The position numbers and the translations under genes are program-made. From positions 1-26,588 of the IMG/VR virus record IMGVR_UViG_3300008448_000526: DNA of 26,588 nucleotides, one strand, 5' to 3'. The notes under the pieces were generated by a model. The model was given only the letters and a program-made list of their open reading frames with translations, made no database searches and was not told the origin of the DNA. This DNA is from a virus. Shown piece after piece: positions 3,155 through 20,591 of this stretch (the stretch's first letter is position 1; each line of letters starts with the position of its first letter).

Positions 3155-3367
3155 ATGACATTTACGATTGAGCGTGATCTCACTTTGGCTGAGATAGATG
3201 AGGCGATTGCTCATGCCTACAAAATGCTCAAAACAGACGAGTACGGCAACCGCATGGATTGGCGCAAACGCGAACTATTGAGTGCCAGCATTGACGATCT
3301 ACTTGACGCAAGATTACAAATCAGCGTAGAGTTGGCTCATGGAGATAATCAAGGCACAACTAACTGA
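3155..3367 (+). CDS. 70-aa hypothetical protein
   Basis: ATG at 3155 follows nine bases after the previous stop. The predicted product is a two- or three-helix acidic protein (DLTLAEIDEAIAHAYKML, WRKRELLSASIDDLLDARLQ) with no cysteine or catalytic motif. It overlaps the start of the ParB-like gene by 29 bases. Function unknown; the position suggests it could be transcribed with the modification cassette. Confidence 0.55.
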   Translation: MTFTIERDLTLAEIDEAIAHAYKMLKTDEYGNRMDWRKRELLSASIDDLLDARLQISVELAHGDNQGTTN

Positions 3368-4010
3368 ATTAAACGAGTATGCAAAAAACCCACGCAAGGG
3401 CAACGTGGATCTGATTGCAGAGTCATTGTCAAAGTACGGTCAGTACAAGCCAATCACCGTAAACAAAGACAACAACGAGATCCTTGCAGGCAATCACACC
3501 TTTCGCGCAGCAAAGCAGTTAGGTTGGGAGACTATTGACGTGGTTTACGTTGATGTGGACTCAGAGACAGCGGCAAAGATTGTTGCAATAGACAACAGAG
3601 CCTCAGACATGGGTGAGTACGACAACAAGGTACTGGCTGAACTTTTGGATAGCATGAACAACCTTGAAGGATCTGGTTACACGTTTGACGAGTACGATGA
3701 CCTGAAGGCTGAGATCCAGGAAAGAGATCTGCCAACACTTGAACACAAAACTCTTTTTGCTTCACTTGAAGTTGGAGAGAGTGGTCAATCAGGTACTCAG
3801 TTCATTCCAACGCTGAGCGATTACGCAGAGCGATACACCAACAAAGCAACACGTATGCTCATGCTGGACTACCACAATGACATTTACGTTTGGATAGTGG
3901 ACGCGTTGATTGAATACCGCACTGCAAACGGATTAACAAGCAATGGCGAAGCGATTTTGAAGTTGGTTGAAGAGGCAGTTGATAGGAAGTGTCCGCATGA
4001 ACTTATCTGA
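3339..4010 (+). CDS. ParB-like N-terminal domain protein
   Basis: Residues 1-125 match the ParB/Srx/sulfiredoxin-like fold of phage ParB-domain proteins. NPRKG is at about 17-21, LSKYGQYKPITV at 30-41, EILAGNHTFRAAKQLGW (a GxHRxxAA variant) at 48-63 and AIDNRASD at 83-90. ParB-fold proteins can bind CTP or act as DNases. There is no ParB helix-turn-helix; instead residues 130-223 form a separate helical region of unknown identity. The gene overlaps the dioxygenase gene by 14 bases. ParB-like domains are known to co-occur with phage DNA-modification enzymes, so it may target or regulate the modification machinery; that is inference. Confidence 0.82.
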   Translation: MEIIKAQLTELNEYAKNPRKGNVDLIAESLSKYGQYKPITVNKDNNEILAGNHTFRAAKQLGWETIDVVYVDVDSETAAKIVAIDNRASDMGEYDNKVLAELLDSMNNLEGSGYTFDEYDDLKAEIQERDLPTLEHKTLFASLEVGESGQSGTQFIPTLSDYAERYTNKATRMLMLDYHNDIYVWIVDALIEYRTANGLTSNGEAILKLVEEAVDRKCPHELI

Positions 4011-4878
4011 GTTACCCGTACACCGTATCAAGCGCGTTATGTCTGAAGAAGATGCAACCGCGCTGGTAGGTACTGTTGTTCCTGATTATGAGCCAAATTG
4101 CACTGAGGCTGGGATCTGGATTGACGACGACACTGAAGAAGTCATTTTTGTTTACTTTCCAATGGAAGAGGAAGTTGAACTGCTGAGAGCGTCTGTGCTG
4201 AACATCAACTACGGCACAACAATCCGACAATCAACAGGTTTGAAAAACCAATCACGCACTTTTGGCATGGCACCGCGCAAGATCTTTCAGAAGCGAGAGA
4301 GTTGCAGAGCAACCTCATTAGCCCATGAACAACCAAATGAACACGCAGTGTTGATTGCGTTTGCAGAGAAGTTTGCCAAAATGTACAAAGAGTTTGCGCC
4401 TGAACTTTATGCAGCAGACGCCAAAGCGCTTGCAGATAACAACGTGGCTGATGAGTGGCGCATGACTGATGACGCACTGTGGACGTCTGGAGTTGTCAAT
4501 AAAGCCTCAACCCTGCCTTACCACCGTGACGGTTTCAACTTTGCCACTTGGTCAGCAATGCCAGTGATCCGCAGAAAGATGAAGGGCGGATACCTGACGT
4601 TACCTGAATACAATTTCACCTGTTCATGTCGTGACGGCTGGGTGACATTTTTTGCAGGATACAAGTATGTGCATGGCGTGACACCAATGACGCCTAGCGC
4701 ACCAGACTCATACCGCTATTCAATTGTTTACTATGCGTTGCGTGGCATGAAGGATTGCTTTACGTTTGCAGTAGAGACAGCCAAAGCACGTGAGAGCAGA
4801 ACCAAGCGTGAGGACAACATGGCAAAGGCGCTGAAAGGCGAGATACCTATGCCTCAGATTGGTAGCAAAAATAAGTGA
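3997..4878 (+). CDS. TET/JBP-family 2OG-Fe(II) dioxygenase (DNA base hydroxylase)
   Basis: ATG 3997 has AGGAAG about ten bases upstream; an in-frame start 30 bases earlier is rejected. The 293-residue protein shows the double-stranded beta-helix signature: YHRD (H176, D178) for iron, GGYLTLPEY (197-205), an HGVTP motif (H226) as the third iron ligand, and SYRYSIVYY with R240 positioned to bind 2-oxoglutarate. The N-terminal half has FGMAPRKIF and a conserved cysteine, as in phage TET/JBP enzymes. The family hydroxylates the methyl of thymine or 5-methylcytosine in DNA. The kinase and amino-acid transferase homologues nearby favour thymine. Substrate is inferred, not shown. Confidence 0.85.
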   Translation: MNLSELPVHRIKRVMSEEDATALVGTVVPDYEPNCTEAGIWIDDDTEEVIFVYFPMEEEVELLRASVLNINYGTTIRQSTGLKNQSRTFGMAPRKIFQKRESCRATSLAHEQPNEHAVLIAFAEKFAKMYKEFAPELYAADAKALADNNVADEWRMTDDALWTSGVVNKASTLPYHRDGFNFATWSAMPVIRRKMKGGYLTLPEYNFTCSCRDGWVTFFAGYKYVHGVTPMTPSAPDSYRYSIVYYALRGMKDCFTFAVETAKARESRTKREDNMAKALKGEIPMPQIGSKNK

Positions 4879-5759
4879 GCCTTTGGGCTGATTACGCTCA
4901 ATTTCACGAAGCGCAGACTCAATCGCGTGACATGGATCCTGCGTACCCAGTATTGAAATGGTTTGCTGACTCTCTTGACCGCGAAAGCGGATTGTGGCTG
5001 ACGTTTTTGTTTGTTGGTTATTACCACATGGGCTCAGCGCTCAAAGCGTTCAGCCTGTATCCAACGCTGACTGTTCCAGATGAAGCAACCTTGAAATTAC
5101 CTATTGCTCAACCGCGCAGATCTCACAGAGCAACATTGAAGTTTGCGCAACACCTTGACTCACTGTGCGCCAAAGCAGAGCAACACGGTGGCTTGGGGGC
5201 TTGGTTGGATAGTGCAACTACGTCTGAGGATCCGCTGACAAATTGGAAAACACTTAACGATGAATTGACGACGGTGTTTGGCAACGGGCGCTGGGCAGCA
5301 TACAAAACAGCAGAGATCTTGATGAAGTCTCACGGGTTCAACCTTGCAGCACCCGACATGGGCAACGCCAATTCAAGTGGACCACGCAAGGGACTGGGCT
5401 TGTTCTTTCCTGGACTACCGCAAGGCAACTCACCCGCTGAGATTGCATACCTAGATGAACTGAGCCTGAAGGTGGTTGAAAACCTCACAGGCAAAACCTC
5501 ACAAGTGAGCATTGAAACGGCTGAAACCTCACTGTGCGATTTCTACGCGCTGAACAAAGGGCGCTACTACGTCGGTATTGACATTGATGAAATGCAGGAA
5601 CAGTTATTGCGTGTCCCGTCGGATCTAACTGCCATGGCGTTCAAGGCGCGATACGAGACACTGCCACACGCATACTTAGGTGAGTTGAACGGCTGGGAAG
5701 GCATAGACAAAAAGCGCAAAAGCGTTTACCGCGACACAAGAGAGATTGCACTGAGATGA
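4875..5759 (+). CDS. Amino acid:DNA transferase-like (alpha-glutamyl/putrescinyl thymine pyrophosphorylase family)
   Basis: GTG start in a GTGA overlap with the dioxygenase. The 294-residue helical protein has VFGNGRWAAYKTAEIL at 134-149 (a DNA-glycosylase-like helix-hairpin region), ETSLCDF at 217-223 and KGRYYVGIDIDEMQEQL at 228-244, motifs I associate with the aGPT-Pplase/AADT families. These enzymes replace the pyrophosphate on phosphorylated 5-hydroxymethyluracil in DNA with an amino acid or polyamine. Both neighbours fit that pathway. The amino acid used cannot be read from sequence. The call rests on remembered motifs plus context, so moderate confidence. Confidence 0.75.
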   Translation: MSLWADYAQFHEAQTQSRDMDPAYPVLKWFADSLDRESGLWLTFLFVGYYHMGSALKAFSLYPTLTVPDEATLKLPIAQPRRSHRATLKFAQHLDSLCAKAEQHGGLGAWLDSATTSEDPLTNWKTLNDELTTVFGNGRWAAYKTAEILMKSHGFNLAAPDMGNANSSGPRKGLGLFFPGLPQGNSPAEIAYLDELSLKVVENLTGKTSQVSIETAETSLCDFYALNKGRYYVGIDIDEMQEQLLRVPSDLTAMAFKARYETLPHAYLGELNGWEGIDKKRKSVYRDTREIALR

Positions 5760-6571
5760 AACTAATTGTTATTGGCGCTGGCATTGCAGGATCCTCAGCA
5801 ACGCGTATTGCACGTGACAAAGGCTGGGACGTGACTTTGATTGACCACGCACCAGAGCAGTCTGCGTCCAGATCTGCCCTTGCCACGATACGCCCAACAT
5901 GGTTCGACAAATCTGAGCGTGATGACCTTGAAAGATCTTGGGAGTGGTACAGCGCTTGGGGTGCAGCAGGATCCAGAGAAGCGTATGTATCAAATTGGCG
6001 CAACCGAGAAGTTAAAAAACAAAAGGATTGGTGGCTGGTAGATCCTCTATTGCCGCTGGTTGAGCCTGACGTAAAAGAGCGTGTTGTTGGTTTATACACG
6101 CAACACGTTACTACTGACTCAGGACAGTTGATTGAGGGCGACGCCATTTTGAATTGCACAGGCGCATACGGGGCAGATCTATCACGTGACGTGACTTTCT
6201 TTGCGGGTGTCACTTGGATCTCCCAAAACGCTAATTTGGACTATTCACCTTATCGTGTTCATCATTTACGACCATACAAATCACTCTCAGTTGCTCAGGT
6301 AAACGGCGTGACACGCTTGGGATCTTCAATTGCTGCAACCGCTGACAAGGCAATAGATGACGCAAAAGAGATGCTGATGACAGCGATTGCGTTAGGCATA
6401 GTCAAGTCAGGTGATTGGGAGATGTCATTAGGCTGGAGAGCAAAGGGCAAAGGCGGCATACCGATTTACCCAGAGTTAGGTCAGCGCAACGCTTATTTCT
6501 CAGGATTAGCCAGAAGCGGATACGGGCTATCACCTGCTATCGCTGAGAAGTGGATTGAGAGTTTGCCTTAA
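5756..6571 (+). CDS. FAD-dependent oxidoreductase, DAO/glycine-oxidase-like
   Basis: ATG overlaps the previous stop (ATGA). A Rossmann FAD site opens the protein: IVIGAGIAGSSA (GxGxxG at 7-12) with acidic D30 ending the second strand. The C-terminus has GLARSGYGLSPAIAE (250-264), the second flavin-contacting motif of D-amino-acid/glycine oxidases. At 271 residues it is about 100 shorter than typical DAO enzymes, implying a reduced substrate domain that could admit a DNA-linked amino acid. Flavin-dependent lyases that trim an amino acid attached to modified thymidine are known in phage hypermodification pathways, and the neighbours support this. Exact product is inference. Confidence 0.82.
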   Translation: MKLIVIGAGIAGSSATRIARDKGWDVTLIDHAPEQSASRSALATIRPTWFDKSERDDLERSWEWYSAWGAAGSREAYVSNWRNREVKKQKDWWLVDPLLPLVEPDVKERVVGLYTQHVTTDSGQLIEGDAILNCTGAYGADLSRDVTFFAGVTWISQNANLDYSPYRVHHLRPYKSLSVAQVNGVTRLGSSIAATADKAIDDAKEMLMTAIALGIVKSGDWEMSLGWRAKGKGGIPIYPELGQRNAYFSGLARSGYGLSPAIAEKWIESLP

Positions 6572-6600
6572 TTACAAAACACAGTTAGATTACGGCTACT

Positions 6601-6618
6601 GGCAGGCAACCGCCTGTT
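6601..6618 (+). other. Small GC-rich hairpin upstream of terminator
   Basis: CAGGC (6603-6607) pairs with GCCTG (6612-6616) around an AACC loop, extendable by two G-T pairs. It lies in the 109-base gap between the FAD gene and the lipoprotein gene, 15 bases ahead of a stronger terminator-like hairpin. It may be part of the same 3-prime mRNA structure. No T-run follows directly. Confidence 0.5.
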
Positions 6619-6632
6619 GAGTGCTGGACAAC

Positions 6633-6660
6633 ACCCTTATTCAATCTGAGTAGGGGTTTT
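6633..6660 (+). terminator. Rho-independent terminator after the FAD gene
   Basis: ACCCTTA (6633-6639) pairs with TAGGGGT (6651-6657), seven pairs with one T-G wobble around an 11-base loop, and runs straight into TTTTGTT. This is a typical intrinsic terminator and would end the ParB-to-FAD operon. The downstream lipoprotein and kinase genes would then need read-through or their own promoter, which I cannot identify confidently. Confidence 0.7.
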
Positions 6661-6680
6661 GTTCGATAGAGGGGGCAAAC

Positions 6681-7091
6681 ATGAAAAAACAAATTGGCAT
6701 TGGAATTGTAGTTTTACTGGCAGTGACGGGTTTAACAGGTTGCAATTCAGATGCAGACGTGGCTTCACGCAATTTATCTGTTGCGGCAGAGCAATTTGAA
6801 ATTCAACGACGCGTAGTGTTTTTTAACGGTATTACCGACAAGTATTTATTAGAGATTACAGGCTTGTGTTCAGTTGAAACCAGTGACGCAGCATTAGGCG
6901 GATCGCTGGAAGTAACCTGCAAAACTGGACCAACTACATTCAAAAAGCATTTTTTGGGGCTGAGCGACAACGTATCGTATTTTGTTGAGCAGATTGAAAG
7001 CGTCAACGCAAGTGTTTACAACTACCGCGTAATTTTCAAGCCTGACGTAATTGTTCCAAACATTGATTTGAAGACTCAGATTGGCAAATAA
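6681..7091 (+). CDS. Beta-sandwich phage lipoprotein
   Basis: GAGGGGGC precedes ATG 6681. The 136-residue protein starts MKKQIGIGIVVLLAVTGLTGC, a lipoprotein signal peptide with lipobox LTGC (C21). The mature part contains RRVVFFNGITDKYLLEI, CSVE, LEVTCKTGP, KKHFLGLSDNVSYFVEQI and NYRVIFKP, which I recognise as the conserved beta-sandwich lipoprotein carried by many phages of actinobacteria and others. Its role is not established; surface exposure on the infected cell and superinfection exclusion are suggested for phage lipoproteins generally. Its insertion between modification genes is odd. The stop overlaps the kinase start. Confidence 0.85.
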   Translation: MKKQIGIGIVVLLAVTGLTGCNSDADVASRNLSVAAEQFEIQRRVVFFNGITDKYLLEITGLCSVETSDAALGGSLEVTCKTGPTTFKKHFLGLSDNVSYFVEQIESVNASVYNYRVIFKPDVIVPNIDLKTQIGK

Positions 7092-7624
7092 TGAAGATTA
7101 TTTACCTCATAGGCGCGCCAGGATCAGGCAAAACAACTTTGACAGAAGCATTTACACACGATTGGAGAGACAGCGCTAACCATGAAGATCCAATCAAATT
7201 CAGAACCCACCATACCCCGTATGGCGACGCACTCTCACTTGGCTGGCTCAGACCAACGTTTGGCGGAACAGACACGCTTGGCAATACGGCGATACTTGCG
7301 ATTGAACCGTGGCTACCAAGGATCGCCAAAGACTATTCAATCATTTACGGAGAAGGCGACAGACTAGCCAACTCACGTTTTTTTGATTTGTGTAAGGGCA
7401 TTGGAGAGTTCCACCTGTTCTACCTGAACACTGAGCCTGCACTGTGCGCTGAGCGTAGGGCGCAAAGATCGGCAATAACAGGTAAAACACAAAACCCTAC
7501 TTGGGTTAAAGGCAGAGAGACTAAGCACCGCAACCTTGCTAACACGTACAAGGCGTTTGAGATACCGTCAGGACTAACACCTCAGGCTGGCGCGGATCTC
7601 ATGCGTAATGTAATCTTTTCCTGA
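7091..7624 (+). CDS. P-loop kinase, probable 5-hydroxymethyluracil-DNA kinase type
   Basis: ATG in a TAATG junction with the lipoprotein gene. The 177-residue protein has Walker A GAPGSGKTT at 8-16, followed by PTFGGTDTLG at 55-64, a nucleotide-kinase-like motif seen in phage HMU-DNA-kinase-type P-loop proteins. The YSIIYGEGDRLAN strand/loop (82-94) supplies a Walker-B-like region, and ERRAQR (121-126) is the arginine-rich lid. In hypermodification pathways this kinase phosphorylates 5-hydroxymethyluracil in DNA to create the leaving group used by the amino-acid transferase. A generic nucleotide or adenylate-like kinase is the alternative. Confidence 0.75.
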   Translation: MKIIYLIGAPGSGKTTLTEAFTHDWRDSANHEDPIKFRTHHTPYGDALSLGWLRPTFGGTDTLGNTAILAIEPWLPRIAKDYSIIYGEGDRLANSRFFDLCKGIGEFHLFYLNTEPALCAERRAQRSAITGKTQNPTWVKGRETKHRNLANTYKAFEIPSGLTPQAGADLMRNVIFS

Positions 7625-19159: not shown

Positions 19160-19978
19160 ATGCCAGGACAAAATAGCGTACGCAGTTACATAGGTATTGC
19201 GAAAGAAGTAACCAAGGGAACTGCAGTTGCAGCAACAGATTATCTAATGGTGATGGCTGATAGCGTCAAGCCAGCAGACATCATTGATCCGCTGTACGAC
19301 AAGGGACTACGTGGTTCGCTTGTTGAGAACTACAACTACATTCCAGGGCGCGAGTATTCAACCTTTGATTTCAGTTCAGCAGCGTTCGCTGACGGAATTG
19401 GTTATGCGCTAACTGGTTTGTTAGGCGCTTGTGCCACAGTAGGCGCCTCAGCACCTTTCACTCACACAATCGCGCTCAAAAACTCTCTTGCAGCAGCAGC
19501 AGACGCTCAGCCACTGTCATACACAATCACTGATTTCTATGCAGCAGCAGTGCGTCAATACCCAGGTGTTCAGTTCACTGATTTCTCATTGAAGTTCAGC
19601 GCTGACGGGTTGCTTGAATACGACGCCAAGACAACTGGTTTCCAATCAGCAACAGTCGCTGCTCCAACGCCTACTTTCAGCACAGTGCTTCCAACTCCAG
19701 TTTGGCAAGGTACTGTCTCAATCGGCGGTTCAGCGGTTTCAAACACCGTGTCAGGAAACATTGACATGAAGCGCCCAATGACACCTATCTTTGGTATCTC
19801 AAACACACAAAACCCATACGCGGTATTTGTGGGCGCGTTGGAGACAACAGGTAAGTTCACGTTTGTTATGCGCTTGTGCCACAGTAGGTGCCTCAGCACC
19901 TTTCACTCACACAATCGCGCTCAAAAACTCTCTTACAGCAGCAGCAGACGCTCAACCACTGTCATACACAATCACTGA
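19160..19978 (+). CDS. Major tail tube protein, first copy, frame broken by tandem duplication
   Basis: Starts with AGGAGAG upstream of ATG 19160. The product begins NSVRSYIGIAKEVTKGTAV and shows the beta-rich pattern of siphovirus tube proteins (QFTDFSLKFSADGLLEYDAK, TPVFQ-like loops, TVSGNIDMKRP). Up to base 19869 it is a normal tube gene. There the 445-base block 19425-19869 repeats, with the frame offset by one, so the ORF ends after about 36 unrelated codons. Deleting one copy restores one 328-codon gene ending at 20591. As read, the C-terminal part of the tube domain is lost from this product. Confidence 0.75.
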   Translation: MPGQNSVRSYIGIAKEVTKGTAVAATDYLMVMADSVKPADIIDPLYDKGLRGSLVENYNYIPGREYSTFDFSSAAFADGIGYALTGLLGACATVGASAPFTHTIALKNSLAAAADAQPLSYTITDFYAAAVRQYPGVQFTDFSLKFSADGLLEYDAKTTGFQSATVAAPTPTFSTVLPTPVWQGTVSIGGSAVSNTVSGNIDMKRPMTPIFGISNTQNPYAVFVGALETTGKFTFVMRLCHSRCLSTFHSHNRAQKLSYSSSRRSTTVIHNH

Positions 19979-20314
19979 TTTCTATGCAGCAAACGTGCGT
20001 CAATACCCAGGCGTTCAGTTCACTGATTTCTCATTGAAGTTCAATGCTGACGGTATGCTTGAATACGACGCCAAGACAACTGGTTTCCAATCAGCAACAA
20101 CGACTGCTCCAGTGCCTACTTTCAGCACAGTGCTTCCAACTCCAGTTTGGGCTGGTACTGTATCAATCGGCGGTTCAGCGGTTTCAAACACCGTGTCAGG
20201 AAACATTGACATGAAGCGCCCAGTGACACCTATCTTTGGTATCTCAAACACTCAGAACCCATACGCGGTATTTGTCGGTGCTTTGGAGACAACAGGTAAG
20301 TTCACATTTGTCAT
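19425..20314 (+). repeat. 445-bp imperfect direct tandem duplication within the tail-tube gene
   Basis: Block 19425-19869 is followed at once by its homologue 19870-20314. By hand alignment I count about 29 substitutions and no indels, roughly 93-94 percent identity. Many are synonymous, but some change residues (for example AAV to ANV, WQG to WAG, PMT to PVT). The unit length is not a multiple of three, so it shifts the reading frame. The divergence is typical of two co-occurring strains rather than a fresh duplication. Confidence 0.9.
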
Positions 20315-20591
20315 GGAAAACGACACAGAACTCACACGTTTCCTAACCAACACTCAGCCAGCAATCGTGCTGAACTGGGCTCAGGGCGCAGGTGCGACAG
20401 CAACTCAGATCCAAGCAACAATCACAAAGGGTGCGTACACCGCAGCAGTGATTGAGCGTGGACAAGATTACGTACAGGTCACAGTTGACTTGAACGCTCA
20501 GGGTAATACAACTGATGCTGGTGTCTCAGGTGGCTTCAGCAACATCAAGTGGGTACTACAAAACGCAAAGGCGTCAGGTACCTATATCTAA
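19870..20591 (+). pseudogene. Major tail tube protein, second (downstream) copy lacking its own start
   Basis: Contains the repeated 445 bases (19870-20314) and the genuine C-terminus (ENDTELTRFLTNTQPAIVLNW, GAYTAAVIERGQDYVQVTVDL, GGFSNIKWVLQNAKASGTYI). The frame is open back to 19791 but those codons lie in the first copy in the wrong frame, and no ribosome binding site or convincing start is visible. It encodes an N-terminally incomplete tube protein unless translation is reached by a +1 shift between 19791 and 19978. The simplest reading is one tube gene split by a duplicated or mis-assembled segment. Confidence 0.7.

Follow-up and report, generated by a model that had tools for sequence, protein, structure and literature searches.

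Can a phage modify thymine that already stands in its DNA, rather than bring in a modified nucleotide from the pool? This question is raised by a compact group of genes at positions 3339-7624 (+ strand) of the IMG/VR virus record IMGVR_UViG_3300008448_000526, of which a stretch of 26,588 bases (G+C 48.6%), here called the window, was analysed at its full length. The genes encode, in order, a ParB-like protein, a TET/JBP dioxygenase, an amino acid:DNA transferase (ADDT), an FAD enzyme, a lipoprotein-like protein and a P-loop kinase. A Pfam search found a terminase of phage type in the window, and tail, portal and tape-measure-like genes were recognised by eye. Taken together, protein families, related loci and structure models make it reasonably probable that the phage uses this cassette to hypermodify thymine in its own DNA once replication is over, with shielding from restriction or another DNA-directed defence as the probable use.

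In the proposed pathway, the TET/JBP enzyme would hydroxylate thymine in DNA at its 5-methyl group, giving 5-hydroxymethyl-deoxyuridine (5hmdU), and the kinase, of the Ploopntkinase3 family, would phosphorylate the new hydroxyl, which is the weakest of the steps. The ADDT, judged by its homology to an enzyme of solved structure, would then exchange the phosphate for an amino acid, most likely glycine, to form Nalpha-glycinylthymidine (Nalpha-GlyT), from which the FAD enzyme, judged by its closest solved structure, would cleave the glycine so that 5-aminomethyl-deoxyuridine (5-NmdU) remains. A role in tethering or targeting these enzymes is possible for the ParB-like protein.

The dioxygenase and the source of the hydroxymethyl group

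An earlier note, made from the DNA letters, had called the ParB-like, TET/JBP, ADDT-like and short FAD (DAO-type) proteins, and all four calls agree with Pfam matches above the cut-off (Table 1). The HRD, HGVTP and SYRYS motifs that it had picked out in the dioxygenase are present, and in an alignment of 13 TET proteins all 13 keep the four residues H176, D178, H226 and R240; the histidine and aspartate of HRD and the histidine of HGVTP are presumably the iron ligands, and Arg240 the residue that binds 2-oxoglutarate. Among proteins of known structure, a profile of the family matches the Naegleria Tet-like dioxygenase (PDB 5cg8/4lt5, E 5e-4/7e-4), and the sequence alone reaches Naegleria Tet-like entries at E 0.14-0.18, together with an unrelated cytochrome. 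The top PDB match of the profile, a designed TIM barrel, was discarded, being the sum of four repeated weak matches. A point that weighs against the proposed pathway is that the TET proteins of eight isolates lie below the curated Pfam cut-off (E 3e-5 to 8e-10). PHROGs labels the family 'queuine tRNA-ribosyltransferase', a name carried by several phage records, and this label, judging by the Pfam match and the motifs, is wrong here.

Relatives of the TET protein were found in 90 of 50,697 phage records at E 1e-5 (96 at E 0.01), and 84 of the 90 are phages of Mycobacterium, Microbacterium, Arthrobacter, Gordonia and Rhodococcus. At E 1e-3, ADDT was found in 17 of the 50,697 records and the window's FAD enzyme in four; BLAST under-counts such relatives, the FAD enzyme of MO526 having been found by Pfam and missed by BLAST. 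Two loci were found on genome contigs, from an Actinomycetota metagenome-assembled genome and from Corynebacterium, both with ADDT-type genes and the kinase. Because the TET carriers are mostly actinophages and both genome loci are actinobacterial, the host of the window is probably an actinobacterium. The cassette set recurs, much beyond chance, in isolated actinophages and in many metagenomic contigs, and isolates with the same or related genes include Phelemich, Reprobate, AnarQue, Tonitrus and MO526. Of these, Phelemich and Reprobate, whose host is M. smegmatis mc2 155, have the full cassette, and AnarQue and Tonitrus have ADDT with another gene of Rossmann type. In a megablast search of the phage collection, the first 25 kb of the window had no relative. 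The cassette genes are under purifying selection: the ratio of nonsynonymous to synonymous substitution rates (dN/dS) is 0.03-0.16 for TET, ADDT, FAD enzyme and kinase when they are compared with the related loci L009, L055 and L019. In the comparison with the more distant L044, ADDT has a value of 0.24, and the other three are saturated and have no defined value.

To trace the source of the hydroxymethyl group, the thymidine-hypermodifying phages M6, ViI and PaMx11 served as controls for eight complete TET-bearing actinophage isolates, hand-picked from the 90 TET records so that the arrangements met were represented, and for 24 IMG/VR records, the window included, which may be fragments. Each of the three controls has a thymidylate synthase (TS)-like gene (PF00303) and HMUDK_hel; neither was found in any of the isolates or of the 24 records. 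TET shows the opposite distribution (8/8 isolates, 0/3 controls), and the isolates also carry Ploopntkinase3 (8/8) and, in six cases, ADDT. Since both the TS-like gene and HMUDK_hel are missing from all eight isolates, TET is the only candidate found in them for the source of the hydroxymethyl group. This distribution of genes favours the view, already taken in the earlier note, that thymine is hydroxylated directly in DNA rather than entering from the nucleotide pool in modified form.

The transferase, the FAD enzyme and the predicted product

The RRxxR and ETxxC motifs of the ADDT are invariant across 13 ADDT sequences that include M6 gp51 and PaMx11 gp46, and the window's protein belongs to PHROG 6364, as does PaMx11 gp46, whose structure is PDB 8z2m with the entry name 'Glycinyltransferase'. 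The window's ADDT sequence alone had no match in PDB up to E 1. A profile match to PDB was set aside as partly circular, the M6 and PaMx11 proteins being part of the alignment.

The FAD enzyme falls in PHROG 16743 (E 3.4e-17), as does PaMx11 gp47. Compared with all PDB sequences, its sole matches at E<=0.01 are 8z2o and 8z79, 'Flavin-dependent lyase' (phmmer, E 0.0033, restricted to residues 3-64); both entries are PaMx11 gp47 and are titled Nalpha-GlyT FAD-dependent lyase gp47/NGTO. The shared PHROG adds to the identification as a putative lyase, and a profile of seven cassette FAD enzymes, PaMx11 excluded, retrieves gp47 at E<=1e-5. An AlphaFold model of the enzyme (predicted local distance difference test score, pLDDT, 87.0) places 8z79/8z2o at ranks 1-3 in Foldseek (best E 3e-14), and VIA gives the lyase a Z of 24.7 at an rmsd of 2.9 over 258 residues. 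Because the best solved match of the FAD enzyme is an Nalpha-GlyT lyase, glycine and 5-NmdU, which the earlier note had offered only on condition that the amino acid be glycine, are promoted to the leading product, and the sequence and model comparisons make 5-NmdU the likely end product.

A different end product, made with another amino acid or by an FAD enzyme that oxidises instead of cleaving, is unlikely, although several observations lean towards it: the identity of the ADDT is only 16% to PaMx11 gp46 and 18% to M6 gp51, ADDT lineages lacking the FAD enzyme exist, and in VIA the lyase is ahead of CmiS2 by no more than about one Z unit (CmiS2 23.6, glycine oxidase 22.6), scores so close that the fold alone cannot fix the reaction. 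These points weigh against glycine and its cleavage; set against them, the same lyase is the best solved match by sequence, by Foldseek and by VIA, and the ADDT and FAD enzyme genes are adjacent, as in PaMx11. In an ADDT tree of 85 rows, with no root inferred, the window lies inside a 15-row clade in which all 15 have the FAD enzyme, and the ten ADDTs that lack it group in a single clade inside a set of rows with the FAD enzyme, a pattern which reads as loss, in so far as an unrooted tree allows.

The kinase and the genes that accompany it

The earlier note had proposed the P-loop kinase with GGTDTL for the phosphorylation step and expected it among the hydroxymethyluracil DNA kinases. What stands of this is the P-loop, the GGTDTL loop, the match to Ploopntkinase3 and a link to known 5hmdU kinases, which takes two forms. 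First, the window's kinase and that of PaMx11 both match PHROG 800 (68 and 105.5 bits, respectively). Second, hhalign relates the kinase to those of M6 and PaMx11 with 94.8% over 123 columns, extending past the P-loop, a result that points to a relation among P-loop kinases and is no proof of substrate. In the GGTDTL loop, G59, T60, D61, T62 and L63 are invariant in 18 cassette kinases, and G59 and D61 over 20 kinase rows with M6 and PaMx11 among them. What does not stand is a match to the Pfam HMUDK models (PF18748 and PF18723): the HMUDK P-loop profile, which M6, ViI and PaMx11 match at E 1e-3 (the PaMx11 kinase below the cut-off, 17.0 against 27 bits), is unmatched in the window, in the eight TET-bearing isolates and in two TET-less phages.

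The company that the kinase keeps was assessed in a census of related loci. From 223 sequences gathered, 222 were usable (a ViI stretch, L094, which bears none of the families, was dropped) and formed 113 clusters, among them the control phages M6 and PaMx11 and two TET-less phages; loci were annotated with profiles built here, and families were pooled over all members of each cluster. The census leans to close relatives, because the scans of viral contigs kept the best 80 of 259 TET relatives and the best 80 of 150 ADDT relatives. Counts refer to the 77 clusters in which a terminase is visible. The full set of TET, ADDT, FAD enzyme and kinase occurs in 30 clusters; TET, ADDT and kinase occur in ten, with a second Rossmann-type protein in a further two, and TET, an ADDT-like protein and kinase occur with a pyridoxal phosphate (PLP) enzyme in nine and without it in one. 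TET is accompanied by the kinase alone in seven clusters, stands by itself in one, and is followed by a sugar-type gene without kinase in 14, while two clusters have the kinase without TET and one has ADDT, FAD enzyme and kinase and lacks TET within the stretch. The kinase is thus present in 52 of 52 clusters with TET and ADDT and in none of the 14 sugar-type clusters. Not counted in the 52 are L182, L027, L046 and L176, which have ADDT with neither kinase nor terminase in view, and L212, which has ADDT, FAD enzyme and kinase with TET missing from the stretch.

Fisher's test gives p 1.3e-14, which is overstated, related loci being treated as independent. Tree-aware pair tests fall short of significance. 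For ADDT versus kinase they gave 3.1 pairs in the same direction, 0 opposite and 4.9 equal over 106 rows (median p 0.25), and 2.3, 0 and 3.7 over the 72 rows with terminase (median p 0.5); sugar-type gene versus no kinase, a pairing tried after both of these had missed significance, gave 4 for, 0 against and 1 equal (p 0.125). The direction is consistent in all of them, and the tests lack power.

These data bear on the possibility that the kinase is no activator but a terminase-linked or nucleotide kinase that happens to lie next door, the substrate of the ADDT being activated in some other way. Several findings besides the missing HMUDK match speak for such a bystander or weigh against the proposed kinase step. 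The kinase family occurs in 391 of 50,697 phage records at E 1e-3, against the 90 for TET; it adjoins the terminase, lying before it, in the TET-less phages Derpp and Hashim76; Nigel and MementoMori have TET and kinase without ADDT; and the kinase occurs without ADDT in seven of the 72 tree rows with terminase. Structure is undiagnostic: the Foldseek matches listed for a good model (pLDDT 90), the best at E 2e-5, are adenylate, shikimate, uridylate, polynucleotide and other small-molecule kinases of a generic kind, and the sequence alone had no PDB match at E 0.01. A bystander nevertheless seems improbable, given the 52 of 52 clusters against none of 14, the PHROG and profile matches shared with known 5hmdU kinases, and the fact that the kinase stays with the set even where TET sits at the opposite end: some cassettes run ParB-ADDT-FAD enzyme-kinase-TET, so the gene set survives reordering. 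Phosphorylation of 5hmdU alone raises resistance to type II enzymes, according to the available part of PMC7653180, in which DNA of phage SP8 was used with the known kinase, and for this reason TET with kinase could be a finished product; this might account for the TET-plus-kinase relatives and does not cover the TET-less ones. Kinases of this family beside the terminase were noted in the TET-less mycobacteriophages at L097:1-567 and L095:1515-2060.

Thymine or 5-methylcytosine as the substrate

The preference for thymine as substrate is drawn from absent genes: a C5-methyltransferase was found neither in the eight TET-bearing isolates, where phage genomes were searched and host enzymes lay outside the scope, nor in the window, a 26.6 kb record that may be a fragment, and the isolates had no gene found for making any 5-methyl base other than thymine. 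That TET oxidises 5-methylcytosine, methylated by a C5-methyltransferase of the host or phage, and that the other enzymes tailor 5-hydroxymethylcytosine is very unlikely: although C5-methyltransferase matches exceed the cut-off in three of the 24 IMG/VR records, one of which (L044) has the full cassette, and although these records may be fragments, the eight complete isolates lack the enzyme, and the characterised relatives of the ADDT and the FAD lyase act on thymidine derivatives, according to the PDB title of the lyase and, for the modifications of M6 and ViI, the available part of PMC6449724.

Apparent exchange of modules behind the dioxygenase

A TET tree was built from 106 of the 108 TET clusters. 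With eight label classes mapped on it, 32 changes are needed, against a least possible 7 and a shuffled mean of 55.8 (five for the glycosyltransferase-like class), numbers that are inflated by cut loci labelled 'none' and in which gain and loss are indistinguishable. This suggests repeated exchange of the modules behind TET.

Two types of loci follow TET with other genes and have no kinase. In L041, L052, L054, L137, L147 and L150, a glycosyltransferase-like gene comes next, for which Pfam gives only a sub-threshold hint (E 0.064), and these loci are candidates for a sugar-bearing, base J-like 5-hydroxymethyluracil in phages. In L037, L038, L040, L123, L125, L129, L130, L132 and L155, TET is followed by a 309-residue protein with no Pfam match and a short HAD-like protein. 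The labels given to these two genes, 'GT' and 'X309', were coined in this analysis.

Other loci carry additional genes in the amino-acid type of cassette. Amidoligase-like and low-molecular-weight phosphatase-like genes lie between ADDT and FAD enzyme in L200, L209, L214 and L197; Amidoligase_2 is above its cut-off in L209, L214 and L197, while the similar-looking protein of L200 does not exceed it, and the phosphatase family was assigned in L200, the remaining phosphatase-like calls being made by eye. A GNAT acetyltransferase is present in L217, as in PaMx11. Such genes suggest further tailoring. LilMcDreamy gp4 (L092:2656-3759), which occupies the tailoring position after a divergent ADDT, belongs to the Asp/Asn beta-hydroxylase family PF05118. 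A second Rossmann-type family of about 290 residues stands beside ADDT and kinase (L005:3054-3926, L003:3761-4642); the AnarQue member has no Pfam match over the cut-off, and the family is perhaps a diverged FAD enzyme.

A tentative picture, somewhat less secure than the pathway of the window itself, is that of an actinophage platform built on a constant TET, which would open thymine in DNA. Interchangeable modules would then complete the product as glycine and then amine, as an uncut or PLP-processed amino acid, as amidated or acetylated forms, as a bare phosphate or as a sugar, the kinase accompanying the amino-acid modules and being lost where the module is of the sugar type.

Gene layout and neighbouring features

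The reading frames of all five cassette genes are open at the coordinates of Table 1. The claim that the first four are joined by ATGA/GTGA overlaps applies to two of the three junctions (GTGA 4875-4878 and ATGA 5756-5759) and fails at that of the ParB-like and TET genes, which overlap by 14 bases, given a TET start at ATG 3997; in four aligned metagenomic relatives a methionine lies there or at most two columns away, where the N-terminus is included. The kinase was said to follow the cassette, and it does so with one more gene, the lipoprotein-like one at 6681-7091, standing between it and the FAD enzyme and overlapping the kinase by one base (TAATG). The product of this gene matches Phage_VG64 (PF25682), its PHROGs label is 'recombination directionality factor', and among the 223 sequences compared it is confined to the window and its near-copies (at least 99% identical).

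Table 1. Coordinates of the cassette genes and of their motifs in the window
Feature	Position	Strand	Evidence
ParB-like protein; ParB_N domain at residues 17-86	3339..4010	+	PF02195, 30.4 bits (cut-off 26.3)
TET/JBP 2-oxoglutarate/Fe(II) dioxygenase, proposed thymine hydroxylation in DNA	3997..4878	+	PF12851 (Tet_JBP), 42.8 bits (curated cut-off 34.9)
HRD (HxD) iron-binding motif, TET residues 176-178	4522..4530	+	H176, D178 invariant
HGVTP, TET residues 226-230, distal iron-binding histidine	4672..4686	+	H226 invariant
Arg240 in SYRYS of TET, likely 2-oxoglutarate-binding	4714..4716	+	R240 invariant
ADDT (older name aGPT-Pplase2), a proposed glycinyltransferase	4875..5759	+	PF18724, 63.3 bits (cut-off 26.2)
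RRxxR motif of ADDT	5115..5129	+	R81, R82, R85 invariant, n=13
ETxxC motif of ADDT	5523..5537	+	E217, T218, C221 invariant, n=13
FAD enzyme, DAO fold, proposed Nalpha-glycinylthymidine lyase	5756..6571	+	DAO, 50.6 bits (cut-off 27.9)
GAGIAG dinucleotide (FAD) binding motif of FAD enzyme	5774..5791	+	G7, G9, G12 invariant, 11/11
P-loop kinase (Ploopntkinase3), proposed hydroxymethyl-base kinase	7091..7624	+	PF18751, 92.3 bits (cut-off 27)
Walker A (P-loop) GAPGSGKT of kinase	7112..7135	+	G8, G11, G13, K14 invariant
GGTDTL loop, kinase residues 58-63, likely on the substrate side	7262..7279	+	conserved residues

The ParB-like protein matches PHROG 723 and also the N-terminal portion of the methyltransferase PHROG 498, and its gene stands before or near TET in most of the related loci whose length suffices to show it. 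ParBc proteins occur near phage hypermodification genes, according to the available part of PMC12783734, and the window's protein is perhaps an accessory one with a role in DNA binding or targeting. Elsewhere in the window, a stretch of 300 bases is present twice (19416-19715 and 19861-20160, with a spacing of 445 bases and 93% identity) inside an apparent tail-protein gene, where the open reading frames 19160-19978 and 19791-20591 overlap in different frames; this is possibly a local duplication or an assembly artefact.

Comparison with known systems

The Nalpha-GlyT/5-NmdU pathway of PaMx11 was reportedly worked out by Wen et al. in 2024. The ADDT, FAD lyase and kinase of PaMx11 (gp46, gp47 and gp49) are in the same three PHROGs as the proteins of the window, and in its order of ADDT, FAD enzyme, acetyltransferase and kinase these families follow one another as they do here. 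PaMx11 differs in having a TS-like gene, HMUDK_hel and the acetyltransferase and no TET match, whereas in the window TET and ParB are present and the TS and HMUDK_hel models find no match.

Phage TETs acting on 5-methylcytosine are said to have been described by Burke et al. in 2021; there, too, a phage TET opens hypermodification, on a cytosine substrate, in contrast to the eight isolates considered here with their lack of C5-methyltransferase. Modifications started by TET/JBP enzymes were reportedly predicted by Iyer et al. in 2013, and actinophage annotations already include 'Tet-like J-binding protein', 'thymidine hydroxylase', 'aGPT-Pplase2 domain protein' and 'DNA kinase'. Parts of the pathway had thus reportedly been predicted, or were annotated, and what is new is the proposed TET entry feeding a PaMx11-type pathway. 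In a literature search whose reach left out key papers, the link between the FAD enzyme and the lyase, the missing alternative entries and the swapping of modules were not met, and its full-text part yielded no recognised report in which a modified thymine had been measured for a phage with TET.

With M6 and ViI, the window shares the ADDT family and a P-loop kinase. Both phages differ in possessing a TS-like gene, HMUDK_HMUD1 and HMUDK_hel and in leaving TET unmatched; in M6, moreover, a PLP enzyme adjoins the ADDT, as does a radical SAM match that lies below its cut-off, and the FAD lyase is unmatched in the 34 of 59 kb examined. In such characterised thymidine pathways, 5hmdU is made in the nucleotide pool before DNA synthesis, as stated in the available part of PMC6449724. 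If TET is the entry, thymine would instead be decorated after replication, possibly at chosen sites, and the nucleotide pool would be left intact.

According to the same part of PMC6449724, JBP1 and JBP2 of kinetoplastids hydroxylate thymine in DNA on the route to base J, and it is this TET/JBP-type step that is proposed, by analogy, for the window. The routes would diverge afterwards, with glucosylation in base J and a kinase, an amino-acid transferase and an FAD enzyme in the window; the sugar-type phage loci are closer to base J than is the window's cassette. Should the TET entry be true, it would constitute a counterpart of base J in bacterial viruses and would supply new enzymes for thymine modification, and the related isolated phages put the question within reach of mass spectrometry.

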